Shown here piece after piece: positions 1 to 21,961 of a stretch of 21,961 bases of DNA. A program made the position numbers and the translations under genes. The notes under the pieces were generated by a model, which did no database searches, had not been told where the DNA came from, and worked only from the letters and a program-made list of their open reading frames with translations. Every line of letters starts with the position of its first letter. The first letter of the stretch is position 1. This DNA is from a virus. The stretch is from positions 1 through 21,961 of the IMG/VR virus record IMGVR_UViG_3300027123_000011; one strand, written 5' to 3'.

Positions 1-384
1 AAAAGAATACCAAAGGCCGAATGGGTGGATAACCCCGAAGCGTGGGACAAGTCAAAATTCATTGAGGAAACCTCGGAATTTTTGTACGACGTCTACGGCA
101 TAGGGAATAACCAGGACAAGCATACGCTGGCTATGCTGGCCGACCATATCGATACGTACGTTCAGTGCACCAGGGCGATCAAAAAGGGCGGAATTGTGAC
201 TTCGTTCAACAATGGGCAAACGATTGGCCCGAATCCATATCTAACTGTACGAAACAAAACGATGACGTTAATAATTCAACTCATGAACGAATTAGGGTTA
301 ACCCCCAGAAGTCGGTTGTCGGCTGGTAAAACTGAGGACAACAGCCCTGTGGCTCAATTTCTGCGTGGACCGCTGGCGCAATGA
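1..384 (+). CDS. terS: Phage terminase small subunit, P27 family (5' end outside window)
   Basis: The reading frame is open from the first base to the TGA at 382-384, so the true start lies upstream; the GTG at 25 is internal. The visible 127 residues begin K-R-I-P-K-A-E-W and are rich in short helices. The C-terminal part (residues about 80-115: GPNPYLTVRNKTM, then MNELGLTPRSR) matches the P27-type small terminase pattern, in which a PxxxxRNK helix leads to an LGLTPSSR-like motif. Small terminases bind the packaging site on phage DNA and load the large subunit. The gene overlaps the large terminase start by four bases (ATGA), the usual coupling for this pair. Family assignment is by motif recognition; the missing N-terminus would carry the DNA-binding part. 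Confidence 0.85.
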   Translation, partial: KRIPKAEWVDNPEAWDKSKFIEETSEFLYDVYGIGNNQDKHTLAMLADHIDTYVQCTRAIKKGGIVTSFNNGQTIGPNPYLTVRNKTMTLIIQLMNELGLTPRSRLSAGKTEDNSPVAQFLRGPLAQ

Positions 385-2051
385 ATTGGCAGGACGGGGT
401 GGCGTATGCCCACGCTGTGGCGAAGGGCGAAATTAACGTCTGTAACGATGTGCGGTTGGCGTGTCAAAGATTTATTAACCAACTGGAAAATGCCGAATGG
501 GAATGGGTGTTCGATCCGAGGTTCCCTGCTCACGTTATACAGTTTGCCGCCACCTTGAAGCATACGAAGGGGCCGCAGGCTGGCGAGCCGATCGTTTTGG
601 AACCGTTTCAACTGTTGCTGATTTGCGCCGTGTACGGGTTCAGGTCCAAAAAGGATTTGAACAAACGAATGGTGACGGACGTCATTCTGTTTATTCCCCG
701 GAAGGCTGGTAAGTCGACGCTCACTGCTGTGCTGACTCTTTACGAATTGCTGTGTGGTGAGGCTGGGCCAGAAGTGTTTACGCTGGCGACTAACCGCGAG
801 CAGGCGACGATTGTGTTCGATGCCGCCAAAGGATTCGTTGAGGCTATGCCCAAGGAATTGGCCGACCTGTTTAACCCAAGCAAGTACAGTATTAGCAAAC
901 GGGGCGATTCGCAGTCGATGTTCAAGGCTTTGAGTCGGGATACGAAAAAATCGGGTGACGGAAAAAACCCGTCGTGCGTGGTGGTGGACGAAGCCGCGCA
1001 GATCGTGGATCGCAACTCGATCGAGGTTTTGCACTCTGGTATGGTGGCCCGTCAGAATCCGTTAAGGGTCTATATCACGACGGCCTCGTTTACAAAGGAC
1101 ACTAAGTTTTACGAAGATTTGTCGATGTTGCAGTCGATCCTGAGAGGCGAGGCGTCTGACAATCCAAGGTGGTTTGCCCTGTTGTATGGGCTTGACCTGG
1201 GCGATGACTGGCGCGAGCCGATAAACTGGGCCAAAGCCAATCCGATGCACGGCATATCGGTATTCGAGGACGCGATTCATGCAAGGGCAGAGGAAGCAAA
1301 GCACAAACCAGCCGCACTCAACGAATTCCTGTGCAAAACGCTTAACGTCTGGGTATCTGCAAATGCCGCTTGGCTGGATCGTGCTCATTGGGACGATCCC
1401 GTGTGTCATATCGTGACTCGTAGGCCCGAACCGGAAGCGTCGTTTATTGGGTTTGACTTGGCGGCAACCCGAGATTTAAATTCGGTCTGCACGTTGAATC
1501 GATTCGGGGAGGATGATTACGAGGCGGAATGGCAGTTCTTTTTACCGGAGGAAAGTCTGCAATTCATACCAAAGCATTACCTCGACATTTTCAGGGTGGC
1601 GATTCAGTCCGGTATCCTGAAATTGACCGAAGGCAACGTGATGGACGACCGCGAAATAAGCGATTACATTATCAACCAGCAATGTAATAGATACAACATC
1701 AAGGAAGTCGGGTACGATGCGTACAACGCCGCCTCGCTGGTGGCACGGTTGCACGATGGTGGGGTTCCGGTCAAAAAAGTGGGCCAGGGTATGGCGGTGC
1801 TAAATAACCCGAGCAAATACATCGAAAAATTGATTCTTAACAAAAAAATCAAGCACGATGGCAACCCGTTCCTGGGCTGGCAACTTGGAAACTGCGAATG
1901 CTACACGGACGTCAATGGAAATATCAAAGTTCGCAAGAATGAGGCCGATAAAGCCGCGAAAGTCGACGGAATTATCTCGATGATTATTGCGGCTCATTGT
2001 GCTTTGGACAATCCTTTTGTGAGCAACAGTTTCGGTTTTAGGTCGTTTTGA
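381..2051 (+). CDS. terL: Terminase large subunit (packaging ATPase/nuclease)
   Basis: A 556-residue motor protein that pumps DNA into the prohead and cuts concatemers. The ATPase half carries a Walker A-type loop RKAGKS (residues 107-112) and a Walker B strand CVVVDEA (199-205) with catalytic D203-E204, followed by the coupling segment YITTASFTKD (231-240). The RNase H-like nuclease half starts near 355; its three acidic positions are probably D359 (in GFDLA), D445 (in VGYDAYNA) and D529 (in KVDG). Length and order fit the Terminase_1/HK97-type family. The ATG at 381 overlaps the small subunit stop, so it is probably translationally coupled. No intein or frameshift is visible. Confidence 0.96.
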   Translation: MNWQDGVAYAHAVAKGEINVCNDVRLACQRFINQLENAEWEWVFDPRFPAHVIQFAATLKHTKGPQAGEPIVLEPFQLLLICAVYGFRSKKDLNKRMVTDVILFIPRKAGKSTLTAVLTLYELLCGEAGPEVFTLATNREQATIVFDAAKGFVEAMPKELADLFNPSKYSISKRGDSQSMFKALSRDTKKSGDGKNPSCVVVDEAAQIVDRNSIEVLHSGMVARQNPLRVYITTASFTKDTKFYEDLSMLQSILRGEASDNPRWFALLYGLDLGDDWREPINWAKANPMHGISVFEDAIHARAEEAKHKPAALNEFLCKTLNVWVSANAAWLDRAHWDDPVCHIVTRRPEPEASFIGFDLAATRDLNSVCTLNRFGEDDYEAEWQFFLPEESLQFIPKHYLDIFRVAIQSGILKLTEGNVMDDREISDYIINQQCNRYNIKEVGYDAYNAASLVARLHDGGVPVKKVGQGMAVLNNPSKYIEKLILNKKIKHDGNPFLGWQLGNCECYTDVNGNIKVRKNEADKAAKVDGIISMIIAAHCALDNPFVSNSFGFRSF

Positions 2052-2081
2052 TATACCATTGTCGGAAACTGGGGGTCAAAA

Positions 2082-3485
2082 ATGGGAATTCTGGACATTT
2101 TTAATAGAAAAAAATCGATTCAAAACGAATCGAATACGGTCCTGGGCCAGTTGCAACTCGGTAACCAGGTGCTGTACGGAACCTCGCAAAAGGGGCAACC
2201 GACTCAGCAATTACTGTACGTCACTACGTCGAGCACGACGACCGCTGGTCGAACGCTCGATATGTCTGCTCTGACTCGTAATTCGACCGTGATGGCGTGC
2301 GTTGGAGCGAAGGCTCGAACCTTGGCGCAGTGCGGCATTAGCATTATGTCGAAGCAAGACGACGGCACATTTGTTGACGCGATCAAAGATCCGTCGGTCG
2401 GTGCACGGGATAAAGCAAAGGCCAAGCAAGTCATGAATTTGCTAATGAACCCGAACAATTTCCAAAGCGCGTACGAGTTTTGGTATCAGTGGTGCATGTG
2501 GCAGGATTTGGCTGGCGAATCGTTCACGCTGTGGTGGCGTAAGGATAAAGCGGACTCGATGCAGACTCCGCTGGAAATGTATAACCTGGACGCGACGCTT
2601 ATCACTGTGGTGCTGACGCCTGCTCGTTATCCGTCGTATCGGTTGTCGACGCCTTCGTATGGATTCAGCAAAGATGAACCGCTGGACGCGCACACGGTCA
2701 TGCACATTAAAGAGGCCGCATGGCAGGGTTCGTCTGGTTTTAACAAAGGTATTTTGGCAACGGAATTGGTCGCGCTCGATCAGGACATTGATATTTACGC
2801 CAACTTTATTATGCAGAACGGCGCAAAGCCGTCTGGTATTTTCTACACCGATCAGGTAATTCCTGATGCAAAGTTCAAGGAAATTGCGTCACGAATCAAG
2901 GAAACCTGGAACGCGATGACCGGCAGTCGTGCGGTTGATCCGAGCAAGGCTGGTCAAGGTATGTTGCTCGACCAAGGCATGAAATACTCGGCAATCGATA
3001 TGCTGACTCTGCAAGATGCCGAAGCCGCCGCCCTAAAAGAGCAAACCATGAAGCGAATCTGCGGTTTGTTTGGAGTGCCGCCTGCAATGATTGGTATTGC
3101 CGACCAAAAATATAATAATACGCAAACGATGCTGGATGAGTTCCACAAAACGACGATGTATCCCACCGTCATTAACCTGGAGCAAAAACTCAAACAGCAT
3201 TTGTTTAAGGGCTATCCGACTCTGTGTGTGCGGTTCGATACAAAGGACTTTTTAAAGGGTGCGCCCCTGGATCAGATGAATTTCGTGTCGGCTGGCGTTA
3301 AGGCCGGCATTATGACTCCGAACGAAGCGCGGGAATATCTGAACATGGCAGAGCACGAGGACGGGGACGAATTGTCGAGTGGTGGTGGCGGTGGCGATGG
3401 CCCGATTCCTGGGACTTCGCCTCAAGATACTGGGGGCGGCGGCGGGAATCAGCGTAGTCGGATAAATATCGGGGCAAAACAATGA
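2082..3485 (+). CDS. Phage portal protein, HK97 family
   Basis: A 467-residue portal subunit; twelve copies form the ring at the unique head vertex through which DNA passes. The start MGILDIFNRKK is typical of the family, as are the core stretches around residues 205-250 (HIKEAAWQGSSGF, then IMQNGAKPSGIF) and 320-365 (RICGLFGVPPAMIG, then NNTQTMLDEFHKTTMYP). The C-terminus (about 425-467) is a low-complexity Gly/Pro/Asp tail with runs of glycine, a common disordered portal tail. The GGGGGTC ribosome-binding site just upstream and the 30-base gap after the terminase support the ATG at 2082. The stop overlaps the next small gene by four bases. Confidence 0.95.
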   Translation: MGILDIFNRKKSIQNESNTVLGQLQLGNQVLYGTSQKGQPTQQLLYVTTSSTTTAGRTLDMSALTRNSTVMACVGAKARTLAQCGISIMSKQDDGTFVDAIKDPSVGARDKAKAKQVMNLLMNPNNFQSAYEFWYQWCMWQDLAGESFTLWWRKDKADSMQTPLEMYNLDATLITVVLTPARYPSYRLSTPSYGFSKDEPLDAHTVMHIKEAAWQGSSGFNKGILATELVALDQDIDIYANFIMQNGAKPSGIFYTDQVIPDAKFKEIASRIKETWNAMTGSRAVDPSKAGQGMLLDQGMKYSAIDMLTLQDAEAAALKEQTMKRICGLFGVPPAMIGIADQKYNNTQTMLDEFHKTTMYPTVINLEQKLKQHLFKGYPTLCVRFDTKDFLKGAPLDQMNFVSAGVKAGIMTPNEAREYLNMAEHEDGDELSSGGGGGDGPIPGTSPQDTGGGGGNQRSRINIGAKQ

Positions 3486-3697
3486 ATCGCCTAAAAATGG
3501 CCCTTGCAATTTTGACTTCACAAATAAAGGGGTCCGATGTTACACTCCCAGTCATAGAAAACCCCCATACGATAAAAGACGACAATCAATCTATTCATAA
3601 CGGGGTGGTTAATGAAAAATCTAACGCTGATTTGCGAAGCACAGGTGAAACTGTCGCCGTCCGCAGACGAGGCCGCAAACCCAAGCGGCAAGATTGA
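3482..3697 (+). CDS. Small basic-tailed hypothetical protein between portal and protease
   Basis: A 71-residue ORF starting at an ATGA overlap with the portal stop, with GGGGC about eight bases upstream, the same style of ribosome site as its neighbours. It fills the otherwise empty 126 bases between portal and protease, then runs 86 bases into the protease gene in another frame. The protein has a short hydrophobic start, a polar middle, and a strongly basic C-terminus (RRRGRKPKRQD) resembling an AT-hook core. Small phage proteins ending in RRGRP/RRGRK-type tails are common in head gene clusters, but I cannot name a family. The overlap means it could still be a chance ORF; the coupled start argues for a real gene. 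Confidence 0.5.
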   Translation: MNRLKMALAILTSQIKGSDVTLPVIENPHTIKDDNQSIHNGVVNEKSNADLRSTGETVAVRRRGRKPKRQD

Positions 3698-4439
3698 GGC
3701 CCGAGTCACCACCTGGGGTGCTCGTGAAGGCGAGGACGGTCGTCGATTCAATTATCAGCCGGAAGGCTTCGCCGATTGGGCAAAAGAGTTTGCGGAGAGC
3801 GATAAACCTTTGCCAATGTTCCTGAATCACAATGACCACGGAATGCCGATGGGAGAGTGGACGGAGTTCAATTTCGATGATGAAGGAATGACCGCATCGG
3901 GTCGTTTGTATTTGAATACCGTCGGCGGCTCGGATTTATACAACATTCTGAAAGAGTCGCCGAAAATGTTTGGCGGTGTGTCTGTGGGTGCGTATGCGGA
4001 GGAAGCGCATTACGTCGATGCTGATGGCAATCCGTTCCCGCCTGGGCCTGATGGGACGATGTGGAGCAATCCCGAATTCGATTACGAAAAAGCATTTTTT
4101 CAAATCGTCAAGGGTGGATTGCGCGAGGTGTCGGTCGTGATGTACCCGAACAACCCAAATGCTGAAATTCAAAAACTGGAGTATTTCACCGCTAATGGTG
4201 AGATCGACCTTCGAGTTTTGGAACGATCCCTGCGAGATGCCGGGGTTTCAAAGCAGAATGCGGTCACTGCCGCATCTGTATTCAAACGTGTGATGGAACA
4301 GCGAGATGCCGTTGCATTGCCGGTTGAAAATGCGCCGAGTCGGAGCGATTCTGATGCGGAAGTGACCGAGGCCGACGAACTGCTTGCCGCACTTGAGTTG
4401 CGTCAACTGTCTGAGGCATTATCAAAACGTCTTAAATAA
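3612..4439 (+). CDS. HK97-type prohead protease
   Basis: A 275-residue serine protease that cleaves the delta domains of capsid subunits during maturation. The core spans about residues 25-190. The likely catalytic His is H73 in LNHND and the likely Ser is S124 in GVSVGAY. The following strand REVSVVMYPNNPNAEI (171-186) matches the family's conserved 'EvSvVxxPaNpxA' segment. The C-terminal 85 residues are charged and helical, ending in LSEALSKRLK, and may act as a scaffold-interacting tail. The GGGGTGG ribosome site supports the ATG at 3612, although the upstream small ORF overlaps this start. Position directly before a capsid gene with a delta domain fits the role. Confidence 0.93.
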   Translation: MKNLTLICEAQVKLSPSADEAANPSGKIEARVTTWGAREGEDGRRFNYQPEGFADWAKEFAESDKPLPMFLNHNDHGMPMGEWTEFNFDDEGMTASGRLYLNTVGGSDLYNILKESPKMFGGVSVGAYAEEAHYVDADGNPFPPGPDGTMWSNPEFDYEKAFFQIVKGGLREVSVVMYPNNPNAEIQKLEYFTANGEIDLRVLERSLRDAGVSKQNAVTAASVFKRVMEQRDAVALPVENAPSRSDSDAEVTEADELLAALELRQLSEALSKRLK

Positions 4440-4443
4440 AGGA
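4438..4443 (+). promoter_or_regulatory. Strong ribosome-binding site of the major capsid gene
   Basis: AAAGGA lies seven bases before the ATG at 4451. Most starts in this cluster have G-rich sites such as GGGG; this more canonical one precedes what should be the most abundant virion protein. Confidence 0.6.
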
Positions 4444-4450
4444 CAACATC

Positions 4451-5794: not shown

Positions 5795-5809
5795 TAGAGC
5801 AAAAGAGTT

Positions 5810-5833: not shown

Positions 5834-5855
5834 AACTTAATAAGGATTCGACGAA

Positions 5856-6878: not shown

Positions 6879-6889
6879 TGGGGTGAAGC

Positions 6890-8303: not shown

Positions 8304-8330
8304 GATACGAACGATCAACTCACTTTTGAA

Positions 8331-10162: not shown

Positions 10163-10509
10163 CGGGGTCAGTTCGTCGGCAGGTCAAAGCGTATTTGACG
10201 GCTCACGGCACTGACCCTGATTCGGTCGATGAGGAACGGTTCACGGACATTTGTATTATGTGGGCCGATGGGGTAATTGGTAACCGTGGCATCCTCGAAG
10301 TGCTTGGCTCTTTGACGGGGGCCGTCTACAATTACATGAGGTCGGAAAACCAACGGGCGTACAAGTTAAATGACATCATTCCGAGAGCGCACGACTACAT
10401 TTACCCGCCTTTGACTGAGGAACAGAAAAAGGCAAAGGTCAACGAAAGTCTGCTGTCGTATTTGAAGGCAAAACCAAACGTCCCACAAAAACTGTTCGGG
10501 AAGGGGTAA
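9674..10509 (+). CDS. Tail assembly chaperone fusion, lambda gpGT-like, made by -1 frameshift
   Basis: The product joins 9674-10159 to 10159-10509, giving 278 residues: all 162 of the short form plus 116 new ones. The -1 frame is open from the slip site to the TAA at 10507-10509. It starts I-T-G-S-V-R-R-Q-V-K-A-Y-L and contains RFTDICIMWADGVIGNRGIL, which fits a T domain that would bind tail tube subunits. The T part has no good start of its own: the only early candidate is a TTG at 10195 with a weak, distant AGG. The ratio of G to GT is functionally important in lambda. The gap to the tape measure is three bases. Confidence 0.85.
10153..10159 (+). other. Programmed -1 ribosomal frameshift heptamer GGGAAAA
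   Basis: In the zero frame the codons are CGG-GGA-AAA-TAA; the heptamer G-GGA-AAA fits the X-XXY-YYZ rule, differs from the lambda G/GT site (GGGAAAG) by one base, and is followed directly by the stop. I see no convincing downstream pseudoknot. Confidence 0.88.
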
Positions 10510-10512
10510 GCG

Positions 10513-12417
10513 ATGGGAATGTTAGCAAGGCTCGGTGTGGTTCTTGGCCTGGATACGGCAGAGTTCCAAAAAGGGCTATCTGGGGCCAAAAAATCGCTCG
10601 ATCAGTTTGCCCAACAAATCCCGACTGTGGCAGGTGTGGCCGTCGCCGCTTTCACGGCGATGACGTACAAGGCTTTGCAATATGCCGATGCGATTGCGGA
10701 TACTGCAAAGGCCAACGACGTTGCTATCGAATCCGTCCTGGCTCTTTCAAAAGGGTTGCAACAAAACGGTGGCGAGGCTGAAAACGCTGGGAAACTGCTG
10801 TCGTCCTTTACAAACAAAATTGATGAGGCCGCGCAAGGTGGTCTGGATGCTCAAAAGACGTTCGCTCGACTTGGCGTGTCTCTTAAAGATTTAGGGTCGT
10901 TAGGCATACAGGATTTGTTCGATAAGACGGTCAAATCTATTGCGGCGATGGAAGATCCGATCAGCCGCAATGCGCTGGCGATGAACGTATTCGGCAGGGC
11001 CGCAAAAGGGGTTGATTTTGTTGGATTAGCCGCTGACTCAAAAGAGGCTCGTGCTGAGTTTGCTGAATATGCCGCCGCTGTGCAAAAGGCCGCAGACCTT
11101 AACGACAAACTTGCCGCCGCATCCGAAAAAACATTGCTGAAATTTACTACTGCGGTTGCGCCTGCGTTGTCAGTAGTATTTGATGAATTAAATAAATCGG
11201 GTGGTGTTCTTGACAAAATTTCAAGCGGGTTTAAATTCTTTTTGGAAAACATGATTTTTGGGTTCCGTATTTTGACGGATGTAGTCAAAAATACCATCAT
11301 CATGTTTGACCAACTGGGTAAATATTTAGGTGATATTTTCACTTTAAATTTTGCCACTGCCGGCAAACGGTTTGATGAATACATGGCTCGTTCACGGGCT
11401 GTGACTGAGGAAACAAAACAATTCGGCATCAAACTGTTTGGCATGGGGCCGGAGGAAAAGAAAAAACCAACAACGGCTGTTGGCCGTCAGGTAAAAGAGG
11501 CCGTCGATCCGGAGGCTGAACGCAGAAAAAAAGAGGCCGAACGCCTACGTATTGCTTTAGAAATGGCGAGGCAAATATCGGCTGAGTACGAACGTCAATC
11601 GCAGTTTGAATTGGAGCAAGTAGAGCGTCGAGGCAAATTGCTTGGAATGACTGCGAAGCAACGCGAGATCGAGGAAGCGGTTCTCGCTGTGCGTGATCGT
11701 TCAAGCAAACAACAAACTGATATTGAGGACAAAATTGCCGACGCAATTATTAAGCGCGAAACCGAACTGGCTGAAGAATTGCGAAAACAAAAACAGATGA
11801 TTGAGGATCGCACGGAGTTTTTTGTCGAACAAACTCGTCGTGCAATTACTGCTCAACAAGAACAACAGAATTCGTTTTTGTACGGGTGGGAAATGGCGTA
11901 CAAACAGTTTGCCGAGGATTCAGAAAATTATTCTAAATTAGGTCAGCAGTATTTCGATACGATGGCTAATGCAATGACAAATGCCATCACGACTTTTGTC
12001 AAAACTGGCAAATTAAATTTTGCAGACTTTACGCGATCAGTCATTCAGGATTTGATTGCGATTCAGTTGCGTATGCAAGCGATGCAGTTGTTCAAAATGG
12101 GTATGTCTGCACTTGGCTGGAGTATCCCTGGCGTTAGCGCAAAGGCTGGCGGCGGTATGGTTAGCGGCAACATTCCTTATATGGTGGGCGAGAATGGCCC
12201 GGAGTTATTTATCCCGCAGGGGGGCGGCTCAATCGTTCCGACAAACCGGCTTGAATCCTCAATGGGTAATGCGCCGAGCGTGGTTTATAACGGCCCGTAT
12301 ATCGAAAACATGAGTGCTATTGACACACAGTCGGCGGCACAGTTCCTGGCAAAAAACAAAATGAGCGTGTGGTCGGCAAACCAGTCGGCGTCGCGTTCTG
12401 TACCGACGAGCAAATAA
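10513..12417 (+). CDS. Tape measure protein
   Basis: A 634-residue tail length ruler threaded through the tube, possibly released into the host envelope at infection. The N-terminal part has a hydrophobic segment (VAGVAVAAFTAMTYKAL, about 36-52); a second hydrophobic stretch lies near 240-265. Residues about 330-450 form a highly charged Lys/Glu/Arg/Gln coiled coil. The C-terminus carries lambda-type landmarks: VKTGKLNFADFTRSVIQDL (about 495-513) and MVGENGPELFIPQGGG (about 557-572). At roughly 0.15 nm per residue the tail would be near 95-100 nm. Start ATG 10513 has GGAAGGGG upstream; an in-frame ATG at 10519 is also possible. Confidence 0.94.
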   Translation: MGMLARLGVVLGLDTAEFQKGLSGAKKSLDQFAQQIPTVAGVAVAAFTAMTYKALQYADAIADTAKANDVAIESVLALSKGLQQNGGEAENAGKLLSSFTNKIDEAAQGGLDAQKTFARLGVSLKDLGSLGIQDLFDKTVKSIAAMEDPISRNALAMNVFGRAAKGVDFVGLAADSKEARAEFAEYAAAVQKAADLNDKLAAASEKTLLKFTTAVAPALSVVFDELNKSGGVLDKISSGFKFFLENMIFGFRILTDVVKNTIIMFDQLGKYLGDIFTLNFATAGKRFDEYMARSRAVTEETKQFGIKLFGMGPEEKKKPTTAVGRQVKEAVDPEAERRKKEAERLRIALEMARQISAEYERQSQFELEQVERRGKLLGMTAKQREIEEAVLAVRDRSSKQQTDIEDKIADAIIKRETELAEELRKQKQMIEDRTEFFVEQTRRAITAQQEQQNSFLYGWEMAYKQFAEDSENYSKLGQQYFDTMANAMTNAITTFVKTGKLNFADFTRSVIQDLIAIQLRMQAMQLFKMGMSALGWSIPGVSAKAGGGMVSGNIPYMVGENGPELFIPQGGGSIVPTNRLESSMGNAPSVVYNGPYIENMSAIDTQSAAQFLAKNKMSVWSANQSASRSVPTSK

Positions 12418-12418
12418 T

Positions 12419-13099
12419 ATGAGTCTTAATCAAATCCTGGCAATCAGCGAATCGGTAGGGATTAACGACCAGCGTTTTGTTGGTCAAGTTCTCAGCCGAA
12501 ATCAACGGATTACTACGAGCGAAGTGCTGACGGTGGTTCCGTTTCAGTTCACTTTGCGACCGATGCCGTATTTGCTTTATAGCCAAAATCGTGATTTGTT
12601 GAGTTCGTTGCGAGTGCCTGACAAGGCTTTGACGCAATATTTGAATTTTGGCGAAACCGGCTGGCAGGCTTATGTCGATTACATGGGTGATATGACACCG
12701 GCGCAGATTGCTGGTTGTGCATGGCAAACGGATTCGGCAAATAAATCCCTAGTGCTTGGCGATTTGCCTTCGATTGCGTCGACAAAATACATCGTAAAAA
12801 ATGGCGACTTTATGCAAGTCGGCCTGTATTCATACATTGCTACGGCTGACGTTTTGCGTGGCTCTGGCTCAACTGTGACGATTCCGGTGCATCGTAATTT
12901 GCTTACGCCGGTGACCGCTCCGATTGATGCGGTAATCGGTCAGTACGGCACAACTGTCAGTATGGGTGGCGACTCGTATACCGGCATCACTTTCCCGGTA
13001 GTGCTTAAATCTTATCCAACGTATACGCTAATTCCAATGGCAACGGATGCGTATATTCAATGGACTGGTGATTTTGTTGCATACGAGGTGGTGCTATGA
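12419..13099 (+). CDS. Tail tip-proximal protein, putative distal tail component
   Basis: A 226-residue, beta-rich protein directly after the tape measure, where lambda gpM or a distal tail (Dit/DUF2460-type) protein is found. It begins SLNQILAISESVGINDQRF and contains VPFQFTLRPMPYLLYSQNRD (about 40-59), then a Gly/Thr/Val-rich C-terminal half. I do not recognise a defined family, so the role comes from position and strand-rich composition. Its stop overlaps the next ATG by four bases (ATGA), suggesting the two proteins are made in fixed ratio. Confidence 0.65.
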   Translation: MSLNQILAISESVGINDQRFVGQVLSRNQRITTSEVLTVVPFQFTLRPMPYLLYSQNRDLLSSLRVPDKALTQYLNFGETGWQAYVDYMGDMTPAQIAGCAWQTDSANKSLVLGDLPSIASTKYIVKNGDFMQVGLYSYIATADVLRGSGSTVTIPVHRNLLTPVTAPIDAVIGQYGTTVSMGGDSYTGITFPVVLKSYPTYTLIPMATDAYIQWTGDFVAYEVVL

Positions 13100-13737
13100 A
13101 CGTCATTACGCCGGTCGATGGGACAAACAACATTCGTTATGCTGATTTTGTGCGTGTAACAACGCCGTCGGCAGAGTATCGGTTTGCCACCACGCCGATG
13201 GCCATTAGTGTGCCTGCGGTTGATCCGTTGCCGTTTGATGCTGTGGGCCAACTGGTAAAGGTCGGCGAGTCTCAGCGCGACATTAAGAGTACGAGCAACG
13301 AGACAACGGTGTCGTTCGTGGGTATCGACACGGCAATGCTTGGGTGGGTTCTCGGACAGGAAATCAAGGGGTCGCAAATTGAAATGTGGCACGGGTTTTT
13401 CAATACCGATGGCCAGTTGATTACGACGGGCGGCACGGGTGGGCTGTATAAGTTTTTCACCGGATATATTTCGTCGTTCTCAATTTCCGAACAGTGGATG
13501 GAGGAAGTCCGAGCGTTTGCTGGAATGATTACTGTCAGCGCGTCGTCGATTCAGATGATCCTGCAAAACCGTGTAGCGGGTAGATATACCAATGACAACT
13601 CGTGGCAGTTTTTCAATCCTGGCGATACGAGCATGGATCGAGTTGCGTTCGTATCAACAATAAACTACCGCTTCGGTCGGCAAGGTGGTGGCGCACCAGC
13701 GGTCGTGCAACCACCAAGACTTCAATCGCTTGAATAA
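13096..13737 (+). CDS. Minor tail / hub-like protein (DUF2163-like pattern)
   Basis: A 213-residue protein with strands typical of tail hub proteins. STSNETTVSFVGIDTAMLGWVL (about 58-79, in two blocks) and IEMWHGFFNTDGQLI (about 95-109) recall hub proteins in which a strand pair is followed by 'GxxD..G.li'. The C-terminal GRYTNDNSWQFFNPGDTS (about 160-177) matches the 'RRYxxxxQ...PGDxxF' ending seen in phage hub-like and DUF2163-like proteins. Overlaps the upstream gene by ATGA. A compact inverted repeat, ACCG-CTT-CGGT, lies near 13668-13678 inside the gene. Assignment is by partial pattern and gene order. Confidence 0.62.
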   Translation: MNVITPVDGTNNIRYADFVRVTTPSAEYRFATTPMAISVPAVDPLPFDAVGQLVKVGESQRDIKSTSNETTVSFVGIDTAMLGWVLGQEIKGSQIEMWHGFFNTDGQLITTGGTGGLYKFFTGYISSFSISEQWMEEVRAFAGMITVSASSIQMILQNRVAGRYTNDNSWQFFNPGDTSMDRVAFVSTINYRFGRQGGGAPAVVQPPRLQSLE

Positions 13738-13738
13738 A

Positions 13739-14173
13739 ATGATTCGGCAAGCAACAAAATACGATAAAACACAAGTCATCGAAATGATGAAAGCGTTTCG
13801 GGCTGAAAGTCCGATCAGTGCTTTGTACGCAGAGGACGACCCGGAATATTGGGACGCAATGCTGACAAGCATTTTTGCTGGCCGTGGTGCTGTATTCATT
13901 GAGGATGGCAAAGGGTTACTGTTGTCGATGGTTTATCCGAGCATCTGGAGTGGCAAGGTTTTTGGCCTGCACGAGTTGGCGTGGTATGTGTATCCGCAAC
14001 ATCGTGGGGGGACGACTGGATACCGCCTCGTCAGGGCTTATGTGGACTTCGCCAAAGGGTTGAAAGATTCAGGACGAATTGCGTATTTCACACTCAGCAA
14101 GATGGTTTCCAGTCCTGCAATGAAATACGAAAAACTGGGGTTCAGAAAAGTCGATGAAAACTGGATTCAATAA
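13739..14173 (+). CDS. GNAT-family N-acetyltransferase in the tail tip cluster
   Basis: A 144-residue GCN5-related acetyltransferase. It begins MIRQATKYDKTQVIEMMKAF, the usual beta1-alpha1 start. Motif A lies at ELAWYVYPQHRGGTTGYRLV (79-98), whose RGGTTG is the acetyl-CoA pyrophosphate loop. Motif B ends with MKYEKLGF (128-135), where Y130 is the usual catalytic acid. The ATG at 13739 follows the previous stop by one base; an earlier in-frame start at 13685 would add 18 residues overlapping that gene and is less likely. It overlaps the tail tip gene by 20 bases. Substrate unknown; a virion protein, a host surface component or a host protein are all possible. Confidence 0.9.
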   Translation: MIRQATKYDKTQVIEMMKAFRAESPISALYAEDDPEYWDAMLTSIFAGRGAVFIEDGKGLLLSMVYPSIWSGKVFGLHELAWYVYPQHRGGTTGYRLVRAYVDFAKGLKDSGRIAYFTLSKMVSSPAMKYEKLGFRKVDENWIQ

Positions 14174-14222
14174 ATTATTTGCGGTGGTGTTGATGCTGTG
14201 TGCATCGGCTCCGGTGTGGGCC
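14154..14222 (+). other. Signal-peptide-like N-terminus of the tail tip protein
   Basis: The first 23 residues have a basic start (MKTGFNK), a 14-residue hydrophobic core (LFAVVLMLCASAPV) and V-W-A before a Met, satisfying the -3/-1 rule for signal peptidase I. No lipobox precedes the Cys. The next residue, M24 (14223), is itself a possible start preceded by GGTGTGGG. Confidence 0.55.
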
Positions 14223-17200
14223 ATGCCAGCGTCTGTTACGTTGTCCATCATATATGGCGACATGATCCTGGCGGCGAAGGCTTTGGGGGCGACTGGAGTT
14301 GCTGTGGCTTCGTTTGCCATTAACCTCGTGGCGACGGCAATTATCTCAAAGGCTTTTTTCTCTCCAACTCAGCCTGGGATTATTGATTCGCCAAACCCTG
14401 GAAACCGACAGCAGTTGCCGCCTGCTACGGATAACAAATTGCCGATCATTTATGGCACGGCCTGGACCGGTGGCATTGTCACGGATTTGAGCATTTCGTC
14501 AGATAACCAGCAAATGTATTACGTCATTTCGTTGTGCGAAGTGACGGATAACGGGTCGGACACGATTACGTTTGGCGATATGTATTGGGGCGGTAAAAAG
14601 GTTAATTTCAATTCGACAAATCAATATGAGGTGGATAGTTTTACGGATGAGTCGACCGGGGCGGTTGATACTGCCGTTGCTGGAAAAATGCAGGTTTATT
14701 TTTACTCGAATGGCTCGAATTCGCCTGTAAATAGTTCACAGACGGCGATCCAGGTTATGCAAACGCCTGGACTGGTTTACGTTTGGGACGCGACAAAATT
14801 GATGACAAATTGTGCGTTTGCGATTGTGCATTTGTCGTACAACTCGGATGCTGGTACGACTGGACTGCAACAAACAAAATTTCAACTGACAAACTCTCGC
14901 ACAAAACCAGGCGATTGTTTTTTGGACTATTTAACAAATGAGGTGTACGGGGCCGCATTGCCGTTGGCTCAAATCGACATCGCTAGTTTTACTGCTCTGA
15001 ATACTTATTGCGATCAGTCGTTTGCGTATACGGATGCTAGTGGAAACCCGCAAACACAACCACGATTCCGATTCGATGGGCAAATATCACCGGCTCGTAC
15101 TGTCATGCAAAATTTGCAGGATATGCAAAATTGCTGTGATTGTTTGCTGAGATACAACGAAATTCTGGGTAAATGGGGCGCGATTGTTCAGTCATCGACC
15201 TATACGGTTGCGATGGCGTTGGACGATAGCAATTTGGTGTCCTCGATTCAAATTTCACCGATTGACATTGCTGGTTCGTATAACGTGATCGAGGCAAAGT
15301 TCCCAAATTCTACGACTCAAGATACGTTCGACACTGCGACGTTTGACTTGGCAGAGATCGAACCGTCGTTGTTGTTTCCAAATGAACCTGTGAACAAGCA
15401 GTCGGCTTCGCTTGGCCTCGTAAATAATAGCGTTCGGGCGCAGTTAATCTCGATTCGAATGCTGAAGGCTTCGCGGGAAGATTTGCAGGTAATGGTAAAT
15501 ACAAACTTCACCGGCATCCAGTTAGAGGCTGGCGACATTGTGACGATCACAAACACCAATTACGGGTGGGTAGCAAAGCCGTTCCGCATTAACAAAATAA
15601 TTGAGGAATTTGGCGAAGATGCCTCGGTCATTGCAAAATTGACACTGACTGAATTCAATCCGTCTGTGTATGACGATGCGGCGATTACGGAATTTCAGCC
15701 GTCCCCAAATACCGGCTTGGGCGATCCGACTGTGTTCGGTAGCGTACCGACTCCCACTATCGGGACGCAATATGCAAATGCCCCGATCCCGTTTTTTGAG
15801 TTGAACGTAACGGCTAGTTCGGCAGGTATTATTCAATACGCCGAGGTTTGGTATTCGGCGTTTAGCAATCCTACGACGCCGCAGTTGATTTTTGCCGGTA
15901 CTACGGCAGTGCAATCTAATGGGACTCCGTATGCGCCTGGGGCTGTTTTGCCTGTGGTGAATTTGGCAAATATCCCGCAAGGCAACTGGTATTTTTTTAC
16001 GCGAATGATTAACTCGCTCGGGGCTTCGCAGTACAGTCTTGCAAGTACCGTGTTTGCTTGGCGACCGATGACATTCCAGTACGCAGAGCGATGGCTGTCA
16101 ATTAGATATGCCGATACAAGTACGGGTGGGGGATTCAGTACTGATCCGCGAAATAAAACGTACTTCGGCTTGCAAAACGTTTCTGTGGCTACTGGTAGCA
16201 CAAACCCAGATGATTATGTTTGGTATCCTGCGACGTTTGGTACGGATTTTTATTTGCTGTTTGCTAATCGGCAAAACCGCAAGTTCAGTTTTGCTGTGGG
16301 CGGTGCTGGATTCAATAACCTGGGCGGTGCATTTGTGCCTAGCGAAACGACTGTGTATGACACATCGTTGTGGGCCGCTTTGGAGGACGGGTTAAATTAC
16401 ATCGACCTGGATCAGCGCACGGGGCAGTTGACGCAAGCGGGAACGACTTCAACCAGTTCGGCTGATGGTTTGCTGAGTGTGACTAATAATACAAACGGCT
16501 CAATGATCGTCGCTTTGGAAAGATTCTTAAATTTTGGCAGTGGTGTTTATAGTAAAAATTTTACTGCGGCGACTTTGACTGTGGACATTTATGGGCGCGT
16601 AGTTGGATTCAGTTCGCCAGATACGTTCTATTACACCGAAACTGTATTTTCAGCGACGGCGGGTCAAACGACATTTGCCGTGACCCATGTGGTTGGGCAA
16701 ATTTTGGTGTTCCGCAATAGCGTATTGATGCCGACAAGCGAATACACGGAAACAAGTGCAAACTTTGTTTTTACAACCCCATGCGCGGCTGGCGAAATCA
16801 TCGTGGTGATAAATATGCGAGCCGTTTCGACAAGCGATTATTATGAAATTCTGAATACAAGCATTGTCTCTGCTGGCTCAAACACGGTGACATATTATGT
16901 GGCTACGCCTCAACCAATCAATGCTGGCGATTTGCTTTGTTTTGCAAGTACGCAACCAGCATCGACTGACACGCCGACAACATATACGGTTGCATCGGTA
17001 AACACAACGACCAAAGTTATTACTTTTACTGGATCAATTTCAGGGGCAACTGCTGGATTTAATATCTATCGCAAGCGTTCTGCTGGTGCAAGTTATGTTC
17101 CTTTTACTAGATATTCTCAAAGCGTAAGTGGAATTAGCGAATTTACGCCGACAACGTTTTCTATTTTAAACGGCTTTGAAAGCGTGTATATCAATGGCGC

Positions 17201-17543
17201 ACAAATTAACGAGGCTGATTACGACATTGCTGGAGGCTCGTTAAGTGGTTTTCCTGGTTTGGTGACTGGGGATATTGACATCATCATGTATGCGCCAAAC
17301 AACTACAACGTACCGGCAAGCAATGTGACAAACACGACGGTGTATTCTGTCACTGGCGATTTGTCGTATGCTTTCCCGAATAACCCATTGTCGATGGAGG
17401 TGTACGCAAATGGCGCGTTACTAACAAAGGGTGCGGGTTATGACTACACGGCTACGACTGCGGGATACAACTTGACGGTTGCATTCCCAAATAACTTTAC
17501 ATTGCTCAATCAACAAACTTTCGCCCGAGATGGGGCGGCATAA
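14154..17543 (+). CDS. Tail tip / host specificity protein, J-like (Phage-tail_3 type)
   Basis: A 1129-residue central tail tip protein expected to contact the host receptor. After a hydrophobic N-terminus, residues about 70-380 make the hub portion, with LPIIYGTAWTGG near 95. Residues about 380-505 contain the Phage-tail_3-like stretch, with QLEAGDIVTITNTNYGWV and KLTLTEFNPSVYDD. Residues about 545-640 look like a fibronectin-type domain (YAEVWYSAFSNPTTPQL, then GNWYFFTRMINSLGAS). Residues 826-1129 carry three copies of a small beta domain with a 'VYxNGxxL...DY' core. The ATG at 14154 lies inside the GNAT gene; ATG 14223 is an alternative start that would remove the signal-like segment. Confidence 0.9.
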   Translation: MKTGFNKLFAVVLMLCASAPVWAMPASVTLSIIYGDMILAAKALGATGVAVASFAINLVATAIISKAFFSPTQPGIIDSPNPGNRQQLPPATDNKLPIIYGTAWTGGIVTDLSISSDNQQMYYVISLCEVTDNGSDTITFGDMYWGGKKVNFNSTNQYEVDSFTDESTGAVDTAVAGKMQVYFYSNGSNSPVNSSQTAIQVMQTPGLVYVWDATKLMTNCAFAIVHLSYNSDAGTTGLQQTKFQLTNSRTKPGDCFLDYLTNEVYGAALPLAQIDIASFTALNTYCDQSFAYTDASGNPQTQPRFRFDGQISPARTVMQNLQDMQNCCDCLLRYNEILGKWGAIVQSSTYTVAMALDDSNLVSSIQISPIDIAGSYNVIEAKFPNSTTQDTFDTATFDLAEIEPSLLFPNEPVNKQSASLGLVNNSVRAQLISIRMLKASREDLQVMVNTNFTGIQLEAGDIVTITNTNYGWVAKPFRINKIIEEFGEDASVIAKLTLTEFNPSVYDDAAITEFQPSPNTGLGDPTVFGSVPTPTIGTQYANAPIPFFELNVTASSAGIIQYAEVWYSAFSNPTTPQLIFAGTTAVQSNGTPYAPGAVLPVVNLANIPQGNWYFFTRMINSLGASQYSLASTVFAWRPMTFQYAERWLSIRYADTSTGGGFSTDPRNKTYFGLQNVSVATGSTNPDDYVWYPATFGTDFYLLFANRQNRKFSFAVGGAGFNNLGGAFVPSETTVYDTSLWAALEDGLNYIDLDQRTGQLTQAGTTSTSSADGLLSVTNNTNGSMIVALERFLNFGSGVYSKNFTAATLTVDIYGRVVGFSSPDTFYYTETVFSATAGQTTFAVTHVVGQILVFRNSVLMPTSEYTETSANFVFTTPCAAGEIIVVINMRAVSTSDYYEILNTSIVSAGSNTVTYYVATPQPINAGDLLCFASTQPASTDTPTTYTVASVNTTTKVITFTGSISGATAGFNIYRKRSAGASYVPFTRYSQSVSGISEFTPTTFSILNGFESVYINGAQINEADYDIAGGSLSGFPGLVTGDIDIIMYAPNNYNVPASNVTNTTVYSVTGDLSYAFPNNPLSMEVYANGALLTKGAGYDYTATTAGYNLTVAFPNNFTLLNQQTFARDGAA
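16629..17543 (+). repeat. Three copies of a small beta 'knob' domain in the tail tip protein
   Basis: Diverged copies begin near residues 826, 983 and 1061 of the 14154-17543 product. Each has a strand ending in T-T-F, S-E-F or S-Y-A-F, a core ILVFRNSVLM, SVYINGAQIN or EVYANGALLT, then a Y/D-Y turn (SEYTET, ADYDIA, GYDYTA) and a closing strand. Similar small domains are common in phage tip and fibre C-termini. Confidence 0.6.
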
Positions 17544-17552
17544 GGGGAAAAC

Positions 17553-18290
17553 ATGACACAAGCGTATAACCTGTCGCAACTGGCGAATAACCTGGATTCA
17601 TCTGGTCGGCTTGATGCGACCGATGGTTTGGTCAATGCGGTTCCTATTGCTAACGGCGGGACTGGTGCGGCAAACGCAACGTCGGCTCGAAGCAATTTGG
17701 GCTTGGGTAGTTTGGCAACGCTTAACACGATTGACAACGGCAATTGGTCTGGTACTGATTTGAGTGTGTCAAATGGTGGTACTGGAGTATCGTCGTTAAG
17801 TGGACTCGTTTACGGAAATGGAACGTCAGTAATGACAGCGGCAACTGCGGCGCAAATTGTCTCAGCGATTGGTTCTACGGCTGTCGCAAATGCAACCAAT
17901 GCTGTCAATGCACAATATGCTGATTCGTTGTCTGGAATTGGCGCAAATCAAACTGTCAAGGCATGGATTGTTTTCTCGTCTGCGTCAAATATTCCGACGA
18001 TTATTAACTCGTACAACATTAGTTCAATCATTTCGTCTGTTTTGGTAGGACAAAACGGTATTTTTACAATTACATTTTCAAGTGCTTTGCCGAGTTCAAA
18101 TTATGTAATGGCTGGTAGTATGACTGTTAAATATCAAGACTTCACATATTTTGGTCTGCCTTCGTTTACTTCGACAAGTTATTACGGTGCGCCGCAATTA
18201 AAAACCACAACTCAGGTTCAGGTCACGATGGGTGGTTATGGTGGCGCATTGGCGAATTTTTCCTATGGCACAATTTTGTGGATATGTTGA
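17553..18290 (+). CDS. Short tail fibre protein
   Basis: A 245-residue fibre. Residues about 32-62 contain ANGGTGAANATSARSNLGLG, the GGTG...NLGLGSLATLN module frequent in phage fibres, echoed by VSNGGTGVSSLSGLVYGNG near 72-90. The C-terminal half (from about 128) is a strand-rich tip with GIFTITFSSALPSSNYVM (about 168-185), a pattern of phage fibre C-terminal domains in which 'Y.itFssalps.nYav' precedes aromatic loops likely to bind receptor. It starts nine bases after the tail tip stop with AAGGGG upstream. A weak hairpin follows. At this length it may be a side fibre or a tip extension. Confidence 0.78.
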   Translation: MTQAYNLSQLANNLDSSGRLDATDGLVNAVPIANGGTGAANATSARSNLGLGSLATLNTIDNGNWSGTDLSVSNGGTGVSSLSGLVYGNGTSVMTAATAAQIVSAIGSTAVANATNAVNAQYADSLSGIGANQTVKAWIVFSSASNIPTIINSYNISSIISSVLVGQNGIFTITFSSALPSSNYVMAGSMTVKYQDFTYFGLPSFTSTSYYGAPQLKTTTQVQVTMGGYGGALANFSYGTILWIC

Positions 18291-18392
18291 TTGATGCCTT
18301 CGGGCATTTGTGGCAAAATTTATAAAAAGACAAGATACCATCCGAACCCTGCAAGTGTGTAGGGAACGTCACAACCCGAGGGAGGGGAATCT
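18291..18392 (+). promoter_or_regulatory. Structured intergenic leader with two hairpins and a strong ribosome site
   Basis: This 102-base gap has no gene. Hairpin 1 is ATGCC-TTCG-GGCAT (18294-18307) followed by TT, possibly a weak terminator. Hairpin 2 pairs CCCTGCA with TGTAGGG (18347-18364, one G-T pair, loop AGTG). GGGAGGGG (18380-18387) lies five bases before the ATG at 18393. A weak sigma70-like pair, TTGATG (18291-18296), 17 bases, CAAAAT (18314-18319), matches consensus at four of six bases in each box; I do not trust it as a promoter. The layout suggests separate control of the long fibre genes. Confidence 0.4.
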
Positions 18393-18890
18393 ATGGCAGT
18401 CTTTAACAAAAATACACTGTATCAGGTGTCGGGGTTTGATAACCCCATCATTGCTGGCGAATTGGTTTATCAGCAAAAAACGTATTGGAATTTAACGTTC
18501 ACCAACTCTGGTGCAATTCCTGTCGATTTGACTGGCGCAACGATTGATGCTCAGATTGTTCGCCGCCTTTTGTCAAACATTACGGATACCCGCAACGGGC
18601 TGACCTTTGACATTACCGATTATGTCCCTGCGCCTACGCCGGTTCCGCTGACGATTACAAACCGAGATGACCCGACTGGATCGTTTACCCTAGTAATCGA
18701 CCAAGATTCTTGGGACATTATTGCTGGCGATCCTGAATTGGACATTTCGGCTCAAAATCCTGTGGGATTTTCTGGTCGAATCAAAATTGGTTTCCCGTCT
18801 TTTGGCGGAACGCCTGAAGATGATGCGATCATCTTTTTGCTGTTCTTAGTTCGCTCTGATGGTGTCGTGAACACTGCGGCATCTGTGTAA
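18393..18890 (+). CDS. Fibre-associated hypothetical protein, upper-baseplate-like pattern
   Basis: A 165-residue beta-rich protein directly upstream of the long fibre. Residues about 30-60 hold [20 protein letters not shown], matching the 'l...n.[11 protein letters not shown]' strand of small Ig-like phage proteins found before fibres, and the C-terminal half ([19 protein letters not shown], then [12 protein letters not shown]) resembles their 'G.i.v' ending. Such proteins often attach fibres to the tail tip, which is the likely role here, although the family cannot be fixed by eye. Strong GGGAGGGG ribosome site. The next gene starts ten bases after the stop with AAGGGGCG. Confidence 0.7.
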
Positions 18891-18900
18891 GGGGCGAAAA

Positions 18901-21900
18901 ATGGCAAATTTAAATGTCACGGTTGTCGATGGCAACAACATCAATGTCCAAGTAACTCCGACGCCAGATCAAGTTATTAACATCGATCGCGGTGTTGCTG
19001 GCAATGGTGTTTCAAGCATTGAGGTAGTTAACGAGGGCGACTACGCTTATCTGCAAATCAATTACACGGACGGCACAATCGAAACGGTTGGCCCAGTTGG
19101 TGTTAGCAGTGAAATCCTAATAAATATCGATGACAACATGGTCAGCATCGTTGCGGTTGCTGACGACCTGACTGTTATCAACACGGTTTATGACAATTTG
19201 GCCGCAATCAATGATGTAGAGGCAAATATGGCCGCGATCATTGCGGCTCCGACTGCGGCATCTGAAGCGGCGGCTAGTGCGGCGGCGGCATTGACCAGTG
19301 AAACAAATGCGGCTTCATCTGCCGCTGATGCTCTGGCGTCTGAAACTGCGGCGGCAAATTCCGCCACATCTGCCGAAAACTCTGCATCGAATGCCGCTTT
19401 GTCTGCGACTGATGCCGATAACAGTGCTGACATTGCCGCGACTCAGGCAAACAATGCCGCGACGTCTGCTGGTGATGCCGCAACGTCTGCCGCAAATGCG
19501 TTGGCGTCTGAAATGGCGGCGGCTACGTCTGAGTCAAATGCGGCTACGTCTGCGGCTAATGCTTTGGCATCTGAAAATGCGGCGGCGGCTTCAGCGGCTG
19601 ATGCACTTGCATCTGAGACTGCGGCGGCGGCATCTGCGGCGGCGGCTTTGGTTTCGGAAACAAATACGCAAACCCTGTTCGACAATTTTGATGAGCGTTA
19701 CCTGGGCGCGTTTAACTCCGATCCGGCAACGGATAACCAGGGCGACCCGCTGATTGTGGGCGCGTTGTATTGGAATACAGTCAACAATGTGATGCGTACC
19801 TATACGGGTACGGCGTGGATTACCGCATACGTTCCGTCTACAAATTTTGTTGCCAAGTCACCAACGGCAACGGATAACGCTGTTGTTCGTTTTGATGGCA
19901 CGACCGGCTACACGATTCAAAATTCTGGCGTCATTGTTGATGATAGCAATAACGTTGCTGGAAATAGTTTCACTGGCGCGTATGTACAGATTGACACGGC
20001 GGCTACTGAAACACCGGCAGTTGGCAAGATGGTTTGGGATGCCGCGCAGGGAACGATTGCGTTTAATGCTTTGAATGATGGCGTTGTGCGTATCGGTCAA
20101 TCGTTGCTGGCTTATGTCACTAATGCTGATTCGGTCACTATCCAAAAGGGGCAAGCCGTTTATTTGTTTGGGGCGCAGGGTGATCGTGCGACTGTAAAGT
20201 TGGCATCGAACAATGGCGATTCGACGTCTGCAAAAACATTGGGGCTGGCAAACCAATCAATTGCGCCTAATGCTACTGGCTTCATCATGTGCCAGGGCGT
20301 TATCGGCGGCTTAAATTTGTCTGGATTCACTGCTGGTGATTCTTTGTATTTGGGATCAACTCCCGGATCAATTACAAACATCAAACAATACGCCCCCAAC
20401 CATTTGGTCTATATTGGCGTGGTTGAGCGTGCAAATGCTGGCAATGGGCAAATTTATTTGCGCGTGCAAAACGGATACGAGTTGGACGAATTGCATAATG
20501 TGTCGGCTCAAAGTCCGACCAATGGACAAACGCTTGTCTACAACTCTGTTAGCGCACTTTGGGAAAAGTCAAACGCGCCTGTTTTGAGTTCGGCAACTGG
20601 ATTGCCGTTGGAAACTGGCGTCACCGGCGTGTTGGCTGTTGTACATGGTGGCACTGGGGCAAACAATGCTCCCGATGCTCGAACAAATCTGGGTTTGGGT
20701 AGCGCGGCTGTTTTAAATGCTGGCGTTGCTGATGGCGTTGCCACGTTGGACGGTAGCGGCACTGTGCCGCTGTCGCAAATCCCCGCATCCTTGCAAGGCG
20801 CATTGAGTTATCAAGGCACATGGAACGCATCAACTAATACGCCGACTATTACATCAAGTGTTGGCTCAAAGGGTTATTACTACGTGGTGAGTGTTTCAGG
20901 TAACACCACTATCAACGGTGTTTCCAACTGGGTCACTGGCGACTGGATCGTTTTCAACGGCTCTGTTTGGGAAAAGATAGATAACACCGATGCCGTCACT
21001 TCAGTAAACGGGCATACAGGCACTGTGGTGCTTGGATATACCGACGTTGGTGCTCCGTCTACAAGCGGAACAAACGCGACTGGAACGTGGGCGATTGATA
21101 TTTCAGGCAATGCGGCAACGGCTGATTTGGCTGACGTAGCAACGGATTTGAATATCAATGGATTGACTCCCGAAACGGCAATTCAATCTAGCGACTATTT
21201 GGTCGTGTATGACGTTTCGGCTGGTGCTAATCGCAAGGCAACGATCAGCGATGCGGCGATTGTTGGGCCGACCGGACCTACGGGAGCAACTGGGCCTGTG
21301 GGCGCGACTGGCCCCGTGGGTCCAACTGGCGCAACCGGCCCTGCGGCAACGATTGCTGTTGGTACGACTACGACTGGTGCGCCTGGAACAACGGCAAGCG
21401 TTACAAATTCTGGAACGTCTGGTGCGGCTGTTTTTGACTTCACAATACCGCGAGGTGATGTTGGGGTTACTGGGCCAACTGGCCCGACTGGGCCGACTGG
21501 AGCAACAGGCAGTCCTGGACCGACTGGGCCAACCGGACCTGTGGGGCCAACTGGAACAGCGGCAACAGTATCTGTCGGAACAACCTCAACGCTAACCGCT
21601 GGTTCACCTGCGACTGTCACAAATAGCGGTACTTCATCTGCGGCTGTTTTTAATTTTGGAATTCCCAATGGGCCAACTGGTGCGACTGGCCCGACTGGAG
21701 CAACTGGGCCAACGGGTAGTCCTGGGCCGACCGGCCCTACTGGGTTGACTGGTAGTCCTGGCCCTACTGGGCCAACTGGGCCAACCGGACCTAGTGGCCC
21801 ACCTGGGCCAACTGGGCCAACTGGACCGACTGGACTTGGATATGCCGGGCTGACATCAACCACATCAATTTCTATTGGGCTTTCATCAAAGACTTTTACG

Positions 21901-21961
21901 GTTAATCAAGCGCAAGGCACAAACGCTTTTGTTGTTGGTCAATATGTTCGTGCCTTTGGCG
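18901..21961 (+). CDS. Long modular tail fibre with alanine-rich stalk and collagen-like repeats (3' end outside window)
   Basis: The frame from ATG 18901 stays open for 1020 codons to the window edge. Order: N-terminal attachment domain (1-90); [15 protein letters not shown] lead-in and alanine-rich coiled stalk (about 90-258); a chaperone/linker-like domain with [18 protein letters not shown] (about 264-281) and [13 protein letters not shown]; a domain with [14 protein letters not shown] (about 322-335); a larger beta domain (about 375-540); the [19 protein letters not shown] module (583-601); a [13 protein letters not shown] domain (about 637-720); three collagen blocks (789-815, 852-887, 924-980) separated by two related 36-residue modules; then the domain starting YAGLTSTTS. 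Such trimeric fibres recognise the host surface. Upstream AAGGGGCG is the ribosome site. Confidence 0.93.
19318..19629 (+). repeat. Heptad-phased 13-residue alanine repeats in the fibre stalk
   Basis: SAA(D/N)ALASE(T/M/N)AAA occurs four times, at 19318-19356, 19486-19524, 19549-19587 and 19591-19629. Spacings of 56, 21 and 14 codons are all multiples of seven, as expected for a trimeric coiled-coil stalk. Confidence 0.8.
21265..21840 (+). repeat. Collagen-like Gly-X-Y blocks separated by 36-residue modules
   Basis: Blocks of 9, 12 and 19 Gly-X-Y triplets lie at 21265-21345, 21454-21561 and 21670-21840, mostly GPT and GAT. The modules between them (21346-21453 and 21562-21669) are each exactly 36 codons, with shared core TNSGTS(G/S)AAVF(D/N)F. 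Coding DNA repeats units like CCNACTGG, so it can misalign. Confidence 0.9.

Follow-up and report, generated by a model that had tools for sequence, protein, structure and literature searches.

What removed the tetranucleotide AGCT from a phage genome, and did the responsible activity belong to the host or to the phage? The question is posed by IMG/VR record IMGVR_UViG_3300027123_000011, a viral contig classed as linear whose whole length of 21,961 bases (hereafter, the window) holds no AGCT, and by an overlapping contig, L002, from nearly the same phage, which carries an open reading frame (ORF) of 171 codons for a nuclease-like protein (Table 1) whose close relatives are almost always found in contigs from which AGCT has likewise been erased. 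We put at roughly 60% the probability that this gene encodes a phage-borne AGCT nuclease that would act without a methylase, the phage being immune through erasure of the site.

AGCT is absent from the window and the wider phage genome

A preliminary description of the window had claimed that AGCT is missing throughout and that AGC is never followed by T, and the computed counts bear this out: AGCT occurs 0 times, a count that covers both strands because the word is a palindrome, and the base after AGC is A 79 times, C 27 times, G 81 times and T never. Expected numbers are 42.5 under a maximal-order Markov model, 47 under a strand-symmetric order-2 Markov model and 63.8 ± 7.1 (minimum 41) in 500 shuffles of the 21,360 coding bases that preserve the proteins and codon usage, and AGCT is the only one of the 256 tetramers absent from the window. 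The earlier expectation of about 85 sites assumed even base composition and was too high because the dinucleotide AG is rare here (rho 0.54), which leaves the conclusion of absence unaffected. CTAG, put at about a dozen, occurs 13 times, and GATC, GGCC, GTAC and TCGA are indeed frequent (83, 94, 76 and 131). The absence extends to the wider genome, with 0 AGCT against 83 expected over the 37,630 bases of joint non-redundant sequence (window plus L002 11478-27146). Relatives share it in part: of 82 sequences that encode a related terminase, 47 are AGCT-erased, 32 retain AGCT, 2 are intermediate and 1 lacks power.

A nuclease-like gene accompanies AGCT erasure

In a first pass of 21 L002 genes across contigs of at least 29 kb, the nuclease-like ORF was singled out; 13 AGCT-erased contigs have it, and 14 AGCT-bearing contigs with a length of at least 15 kb yielded no match. 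When 77 gene clusters from 22 contigs (at least 29 kb each) were scanned without preselection, the nuclease-like cluster likewise came first for AGCT (13/14 AGCT-erased versus 1/8 AGCT-present contigs; p 0.00035, uncorrected for the 77 clusters); we take the missing erased contig to be L013, whose copy of the gene runs off the contig end, and the AGCT-present contig to be L052.

The pattern was followed in homologous stretches (the top 80 of 206 for one lead sequence and the top 80 of 200 for another, plus three from a later search), with carriers defined as contigs whose encoded relative matches either of two queries at 48-100% identity. AGCT is erased in 105 of the 107 distinct carrier contigs with power (52 sites seen versus 3198 expected, pooled), a count that excludes L216 (0 versus 5.8), where power was insufficient. 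Both contigs that break the pattern look like two-part contigs, as AGCT is almost confined to the part dissimilar to other carriers (the last 0.9 kb only of L223; position 743 and from 3761 on in L227). Beside the gene lie Ref, with or without g153, in 63/105 contigs, YqaJ in 32/105 and neither in 10/105. The carrier L254 (32.9 kb) has no AGCT where 129 are expected, and its terminase, portal and head/capsid proteins belong to other PHROG families than those of the window; judged by these protein families, at least one carrier is shown to have an unrelated backbone, and gene and AGCT erasure are found together in more than one backbone. AGCT is also missing from L263 (0/104, seen/expected), whose terminase large subunit (TerL) is 72% identical to that of L002, and it is present in two contigs that have no nuclease-like gene: L297 (36.9 kb, TerL 86% identical; 140/181) and L079, which has the neighbours g153 and Ref (118/175).

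YqaJ loci, of which the best 80 of 585 were taken, show the same contrast. All eight with the nuclease-like gene are AGCT-erased, while the 72 without a detected gene comprise 60 with AGCT present, 2 intermediate and 10 erased (Fisher p 1.5e-6, with rows that are not independent). Erasure that is near-universal in carriers, and common in non-carriers only beside carriers, is what would be expected if the gene product cuts AGCT.

Predicted fold of the protein and search for methylases

The L002 protein has a predicted restriction-endonuclease-like fold. In a 12-row alignment of relatives, E58, D81 and K93 are invariant and position 91 is D or E, which gives the conserved PD-(D/E)XK layout of a helix glutamate, a PD-like aspartate and (D/E)xK, as described for restriction enzymes in PMC11347163. 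The predicted model has a predicted local distance difference test score (pLDDT) of 85.2 and a predicted template modelling score (pTM) of 0.84; its first Foldseek matches are Eco15I (E 1.5e-4) and NhoI (E 3.4e-3), and VIA-align gives Z 9.3 with Eco15I, 8.9 with NhoI, 8.3 with Hjc and 8.2 with DpnI. The protein resembles the BisI-family enzymes NhoI and Eco15I (PMC11347163) in predicted fold, in the arrangement of PD-(D/E)XK residues and in an AD motif as in Eco15I, but it differs in having D/E-x-K where they have Q-x-K, in sharing only 12-19% identity in structure alignments and in the word concerned, as BisI enzymes cut methylated GCNGC and the word linked here is AGCT. The fold by itself, as modelled, indicates neither activity nor site.

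Sequence families add little to this picture. Nine of the 12 alignment members match PF19161 (DUF5843), a Pfam family without assigned function, with E values no higher than 0.01 (the lowest being 1.5e-7), and the L002 protein scores 23.2 bits, under the curated cut-off of 25. A profile search of PDB sequences with the nuclease-like family returned only two lectin chains (E 0.31 and 0.34).

No match to the methylase families PF00145, PF01555 and PF02086 was found in the L002 record; window positions 1-10484 lay outside this search, and the scanned proteins encoded there are structural. For these three families, L002 does not show the methyltransferase beside the nuclease that would mark a type II restriction-modification system. 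Among the metagenome contigs, PF00145 is matched in 2/40 (L007 and L022), PF01555 in 1/38 (L068) and PF02086 in 0/38. These phage-encoded methylases, which might offer phages another way out than erasure, are of the cytosine type in L007 and L022 and of the N4/N6 type in L068, and family and PDB searches did not reveal their target sites. Elsewhere in L002, the protein encoded at 25552-26496 matches the PHROG beta-glucosyl-HMC-alpha-glucosyltransferase (E 1e-76) and that at 12280-13050 matches a 2-oxoglutarate (2OG)-Fe(II) oxygenase (E 3.5e-39), matches that suggest a possible role in base modification.

A proposed phage-borne nuclease with immunity by site erasure

We favour the interpretation that the phage would encode a small PD-(D/E)XK endonuclease cutting AGCT, or AGCT with a host methyl group, which would act without a partner methylase because every AGCT has been removed from the phage genome. 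Its target during infection would be host or rival-phage DNA, and a phage with both the gene and AGCT sites would damage itself. Several steps here are inferred: activity of the protein, AGCT as its target, action on host or rival-phage DNA in the course of infection, and presence of the gene in the genome represented by the window. We also lean towards the view that this is a family of solitary restriction-type nucleases spreading between unrelated phages, an AGCT-cutting weapon to which the erased word would confer immunity.

Restriction enzymes are thought to require a partner that marks their owner's DNA. Viral nucleases that cut host DNA are known, among them the restriction enzymes of Chlorella viruses and endonuclease II of T4, and these viruses protect themselves by methylation or by modified cytosine; L002 differs from them in that a search with the three Pfam families gave no methylase and its sequence no longer has the sites. 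If our interpretation is true, the likely partner is the edited genome alone, a cutter being affordable since the phage lacks its target; missing words in phage genomes may then signal the phage's own weapons besides the defences of hosts, and a gene that forces genome-wide rewriting in its carrier would limit both its own spread and the carrier's recombination partners. No report of the nuclease-like gene, or of a phage nuclease whose carrier is immune because the site has been erased, turned up in a literature search conducted mostly at the level of abstracts, in which subscription journals were thinly covered.

Several observations weigh against this interpretation. Of the 72 YqaJ loci in which no gene was detected, ten also lack AGCT, and a profile search of their full records found no diverged copy of the gene; all ten sit among carriers on the YqaJ tree, and in four of them (L388, L391, L394 and L403) the slot behind YqaJ is filled by another ORF, of a kind also present in AGCT-bearing phages. 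These ten fit either recent loss of the gene before the return of AGCT or a host cause. On the YqaJ tree, three independent pairs stand on supported branches, with about 1.8 in the same direction and 0 opposite, which is not significant, and many carriers may be close kin, so that contig names are not independent events. The gene itself was read in L002, outside the window, and 12 AGCT-erased contigs between 15 and 25 kb long, among them the window, gave no match to it; since in L002 the terminase lies about 25 kb upstream of the gene, we presume that these contigs stop short of its slot. Structurally, only one Foldseek match reaches E 0.001 or less, template modelling (TM) scores are 0.43-0.49 and the Holliday-junction resolvase Hjc scores nearly as high as the restriction enzymes (Z 8.3).

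Diverged homologs, moreover, occur together with AGCT: MEP301 has 189/205 (30% identity), L052 has 27/105 (about 31%) and L409 has 80/94, so that the link to AGCT is limited to the close subfamily, homologs at 30-32% identity falling outside it. GAGCT is absent from contigs carrying the L052-type homolog of about 31% identity (L052 0/31; L337, L338 and L339 0/5 each); the idea that diverged homologs have GAGCT as a word of their own was dropped, because GAGCT is also scarce (2/26) in L068, which gave no match to the gene. The screen applied here detected no erased palindrome of four or five bases in MEP301. Among 50,697 phage records, the nuclease-like protein was matched only by MEP301 and two Antsirabe records (27-30%); it was not found in plasmids, nor in 398 Pseudomonadota genomes, an empty search result of a kind that is uninformative, and PADLOC returned no match for six proteins.

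Host restriction and other erased words

The foremost alternative is that the hosts have an AGCT restriction system of the AluI kind and that their phages have lost the site in response, with the nuclease-like gene doing no more than circulating among phages that share those hosts; we regard it as less likely but take it seriously. The preliminary description had proposed such a host system, AluI-type or other, and had taken the selection to act on a single palindromic tetramer. Selection on the word stands, with AGCT-cutting activity as its natural cause; the host as its source is no longer obvious, as the absence tracks a phage gene in 105/107 carriers, and AGCT is not alone. In the window, GCAGC/GCTGC (GCWGC on double-stranded DNA) and AGGAG/CTCCT also number 0 against 66.3 and 20.6 in codon shuffles, in which CGCG (58 versus 88.6) and CCGG (58 versus 87.8) are mildly low; over the 37,630 bases, GCWGC occurs once against 110 expected and AGGAG once, at L002 18780, against 24.

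Host restriction gains support from the erasure of GCWGC, CCWGG, GGCC, GATC, CGCG, CCGG, ACGT and CASTG, in shifting sets, in the same phages. On the terminase tree, a quick tree of phage genomes that recombine, these words come and go with 6-11 changes each, and AGCT changes state at least 7 times. Family records of at least 15 kb have a median of 4 erased palindromic words (41 records, including 4 that are overlapping versions of the phage in the window, and with some erased words overlapping each other), against a median of 0 for 20 control phages whose terminase is related. No erased word occurs in 16 of these controls, and there are 6 in Enterococcus LM99, 3 in Serratia Bonzee and 3 in Vibrio 1216. 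Shifting sets of this kind among relatives are as escape from host restriction would give, and the losses of GCWGC, which is absent clade-wide, and of AGGAG are best explained separately, by host restriction; the sets would then amount to a readable record of restriction in the hosts of these phages. The host explanation gains further from the ten AGCT-free YqaJ loci and from the fact that, for the other erased words, no gene cluster gave as good an account as the nuclease-like cluster does for AGCT.

Carriers, however, vary in these other words (erased among those tested: CCCGG 41/47, GCAGC 75/102, CCAGG 59/98 and GATC 41/106), yet nearly all lack AGCT, in more than one backbone. Host restriction also offers no reason why the gene should be absent from AGCT-bearing phages, unless it is confined to phages of AGCT-restricting hosts. 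AGCT-core N4-methylcytosine (m4C) methylation is reported (PMC6329791) for a bin of Ca. Methylopumilus (Methylophilaceae), and the nearest isolate to the window by terminase, phage P19250A (68.6%), infects a Methylophilaceae bacterium. P19250A is also the closest phage isolate of that AGCT-methylated bin, yet it keeps AGCT (223/216). Alignment of TerL in genome contigs gave six relatives, and the three close ones all lie in metagenome bins; the ribulose monophosphate (RuMP) enzyme, a Methylophilaceae marker, was not found in these three bins, and no host can be named from the TerL and bin search.

Avoidance of recognition sites by prokaryotic viruses is described by Rusinov et al. 2018 (PMC6286503): the sites lost are mostly orthodox Type II sites, and about one viral genome in ten shows complete or nearly complete elimination. 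The present case resembles that account in that short palindromes are lost and a site is depleted beyond composition; it departs from it in that the cutter there is the host's, whereas AGCT loss here tracks a phage gene, and in that several words are lost together (the median of 4 given above).

Within the interpretation that we favour, a modification-dependent nuclease like BisI or DpnI accounts for a minor share. It would cut host DNA bearing methylated AGCT, and since phage DNA replicated in such a host would bear the mark too and be cut, the phage could keep no AGCT. The nearest structures are the methyl-dependent Eco15I, NhoI and DpnI, and the m4C mark on AGCT is reported for the one Methylophilaceae bin cited above (PMC6329791), but PD-(D/E)XK folds are common to many enzymes.

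Selection rather than mutation or bias

When AGCT-bearing relatives are aligned with AGCT-free ones, 0/126 AGCT sites are retained, and the corresponding figures for other words are 0/91 for GCWGC, 1/152 for GGCC, 3/120 for GATC, 0/38 for CCWGG, 1/43 for CCGG, 0/83 for CGCG and 0/15 for ACGT, in site pairs that overlap, share contigs and are not independent. The 69 single changes at AGCT are of 12 types and fall at all four positions, with 37 transitions against 33.3 expected and 25 changes of C>T plus G>A. GCWGC mainly loses its central W (W-to-S in 49 of 70 singly changed sites), and GATC alone has a transition excess (62/74 versus 35.6 expected, mostly T to C). These data support selection on the word, not mutation bias, as the origin of AGCT loss. 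Deamination of methylated AGCT to AGTT or AACT, for which the transition-rich GATC changes offer a parallel and AGCT itself nothing, is accordingly given almost no weight against a spread over so many types and positions. Codon or dinucleotide bias, which the preliminary description had named as a possible refutation and for which the rarity of AG might speak, is ruled out as the cause, as is chance, by 0 sites against the shuffle minimum of 41 and by the concentration of erased tetramers in the family among palindromes (77/650 palindromic versus 2/4908 non-palindromic tests).

Residual sites were compared in 22 long contigs with at least three such sites. They cluster within 1.5 kb beyond chance in five (L005, L007, L054, L059 and L075; simulated p 0.003 or less), with p 0.02 in L065 and no clustering in the other 16. 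Four of the clusters lie in long repetitive ORFs (L005 1-1232, L075 6530-8518, L054 18075-19428 and L007 14879-18304) that look like tail-fibre genes, and the islands of leftover sites appear as if receptor-binding modules had recently been imported. The tail-fibre-like gene of the window itself lacks both AGCT and GCWGC.

The window, its overlapping contig and minor observations

The window is the whole viral contig and encodes the terminase, portal, protease, head, connector and tail proteins of a tailed phage. Its two overlaps with L002 (Table 1) close the pair into about 37.6 kb made of two near strains.

Table 1. Coordinates of features in the window and in contig L002.
Feature	Position	Strand	Remarks
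Terminase large subunit	381..2051	+	PHROGs phrog_9, E 1.4e-130; basis of the tree of relatives
Segment common to L002 at 99.99% identity	window 10485..21961		Contig overlap
Segment matching the opposite L002 end (27147-29253) at 93.8%	window 1..2107		Contig overlap
Tail-fibre-like gene with collagen-like repeats	18901..21961	+	Open at window end; name read from the repeats
Stretch without AGCT, GCAGC/GCTGC and AGGAG/CTCCT	1..21961		Word counts
Nuclease-like gene, 171-aa ORF	L002 15099-15614	minus	Outside the window; about 25 kb downstream of the terminase

The erased word AGGAG/CTCCT is asymmetric; words that differ from it by one base are common, and ribosome-binding sites resemble AAGGGG instead. 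In L077 (36 kb), the trinucleotide ACG/CGT occurs 34 times versus 304 expected, and ACGT and ACGC are at zero. Three adjoining genes at L028 5687-7748 and in relatives are present in 6/7 CASTG-erased versus 1/14 CASTG-bearing contigs (p 0.00085, uncorrected). L297, L318, L069, L076 and others keep AGCT yet are without the 6-bp words AAGCTT, CAGCTG or GAGCTC, as restriction by a host at 6-bp sites would give.

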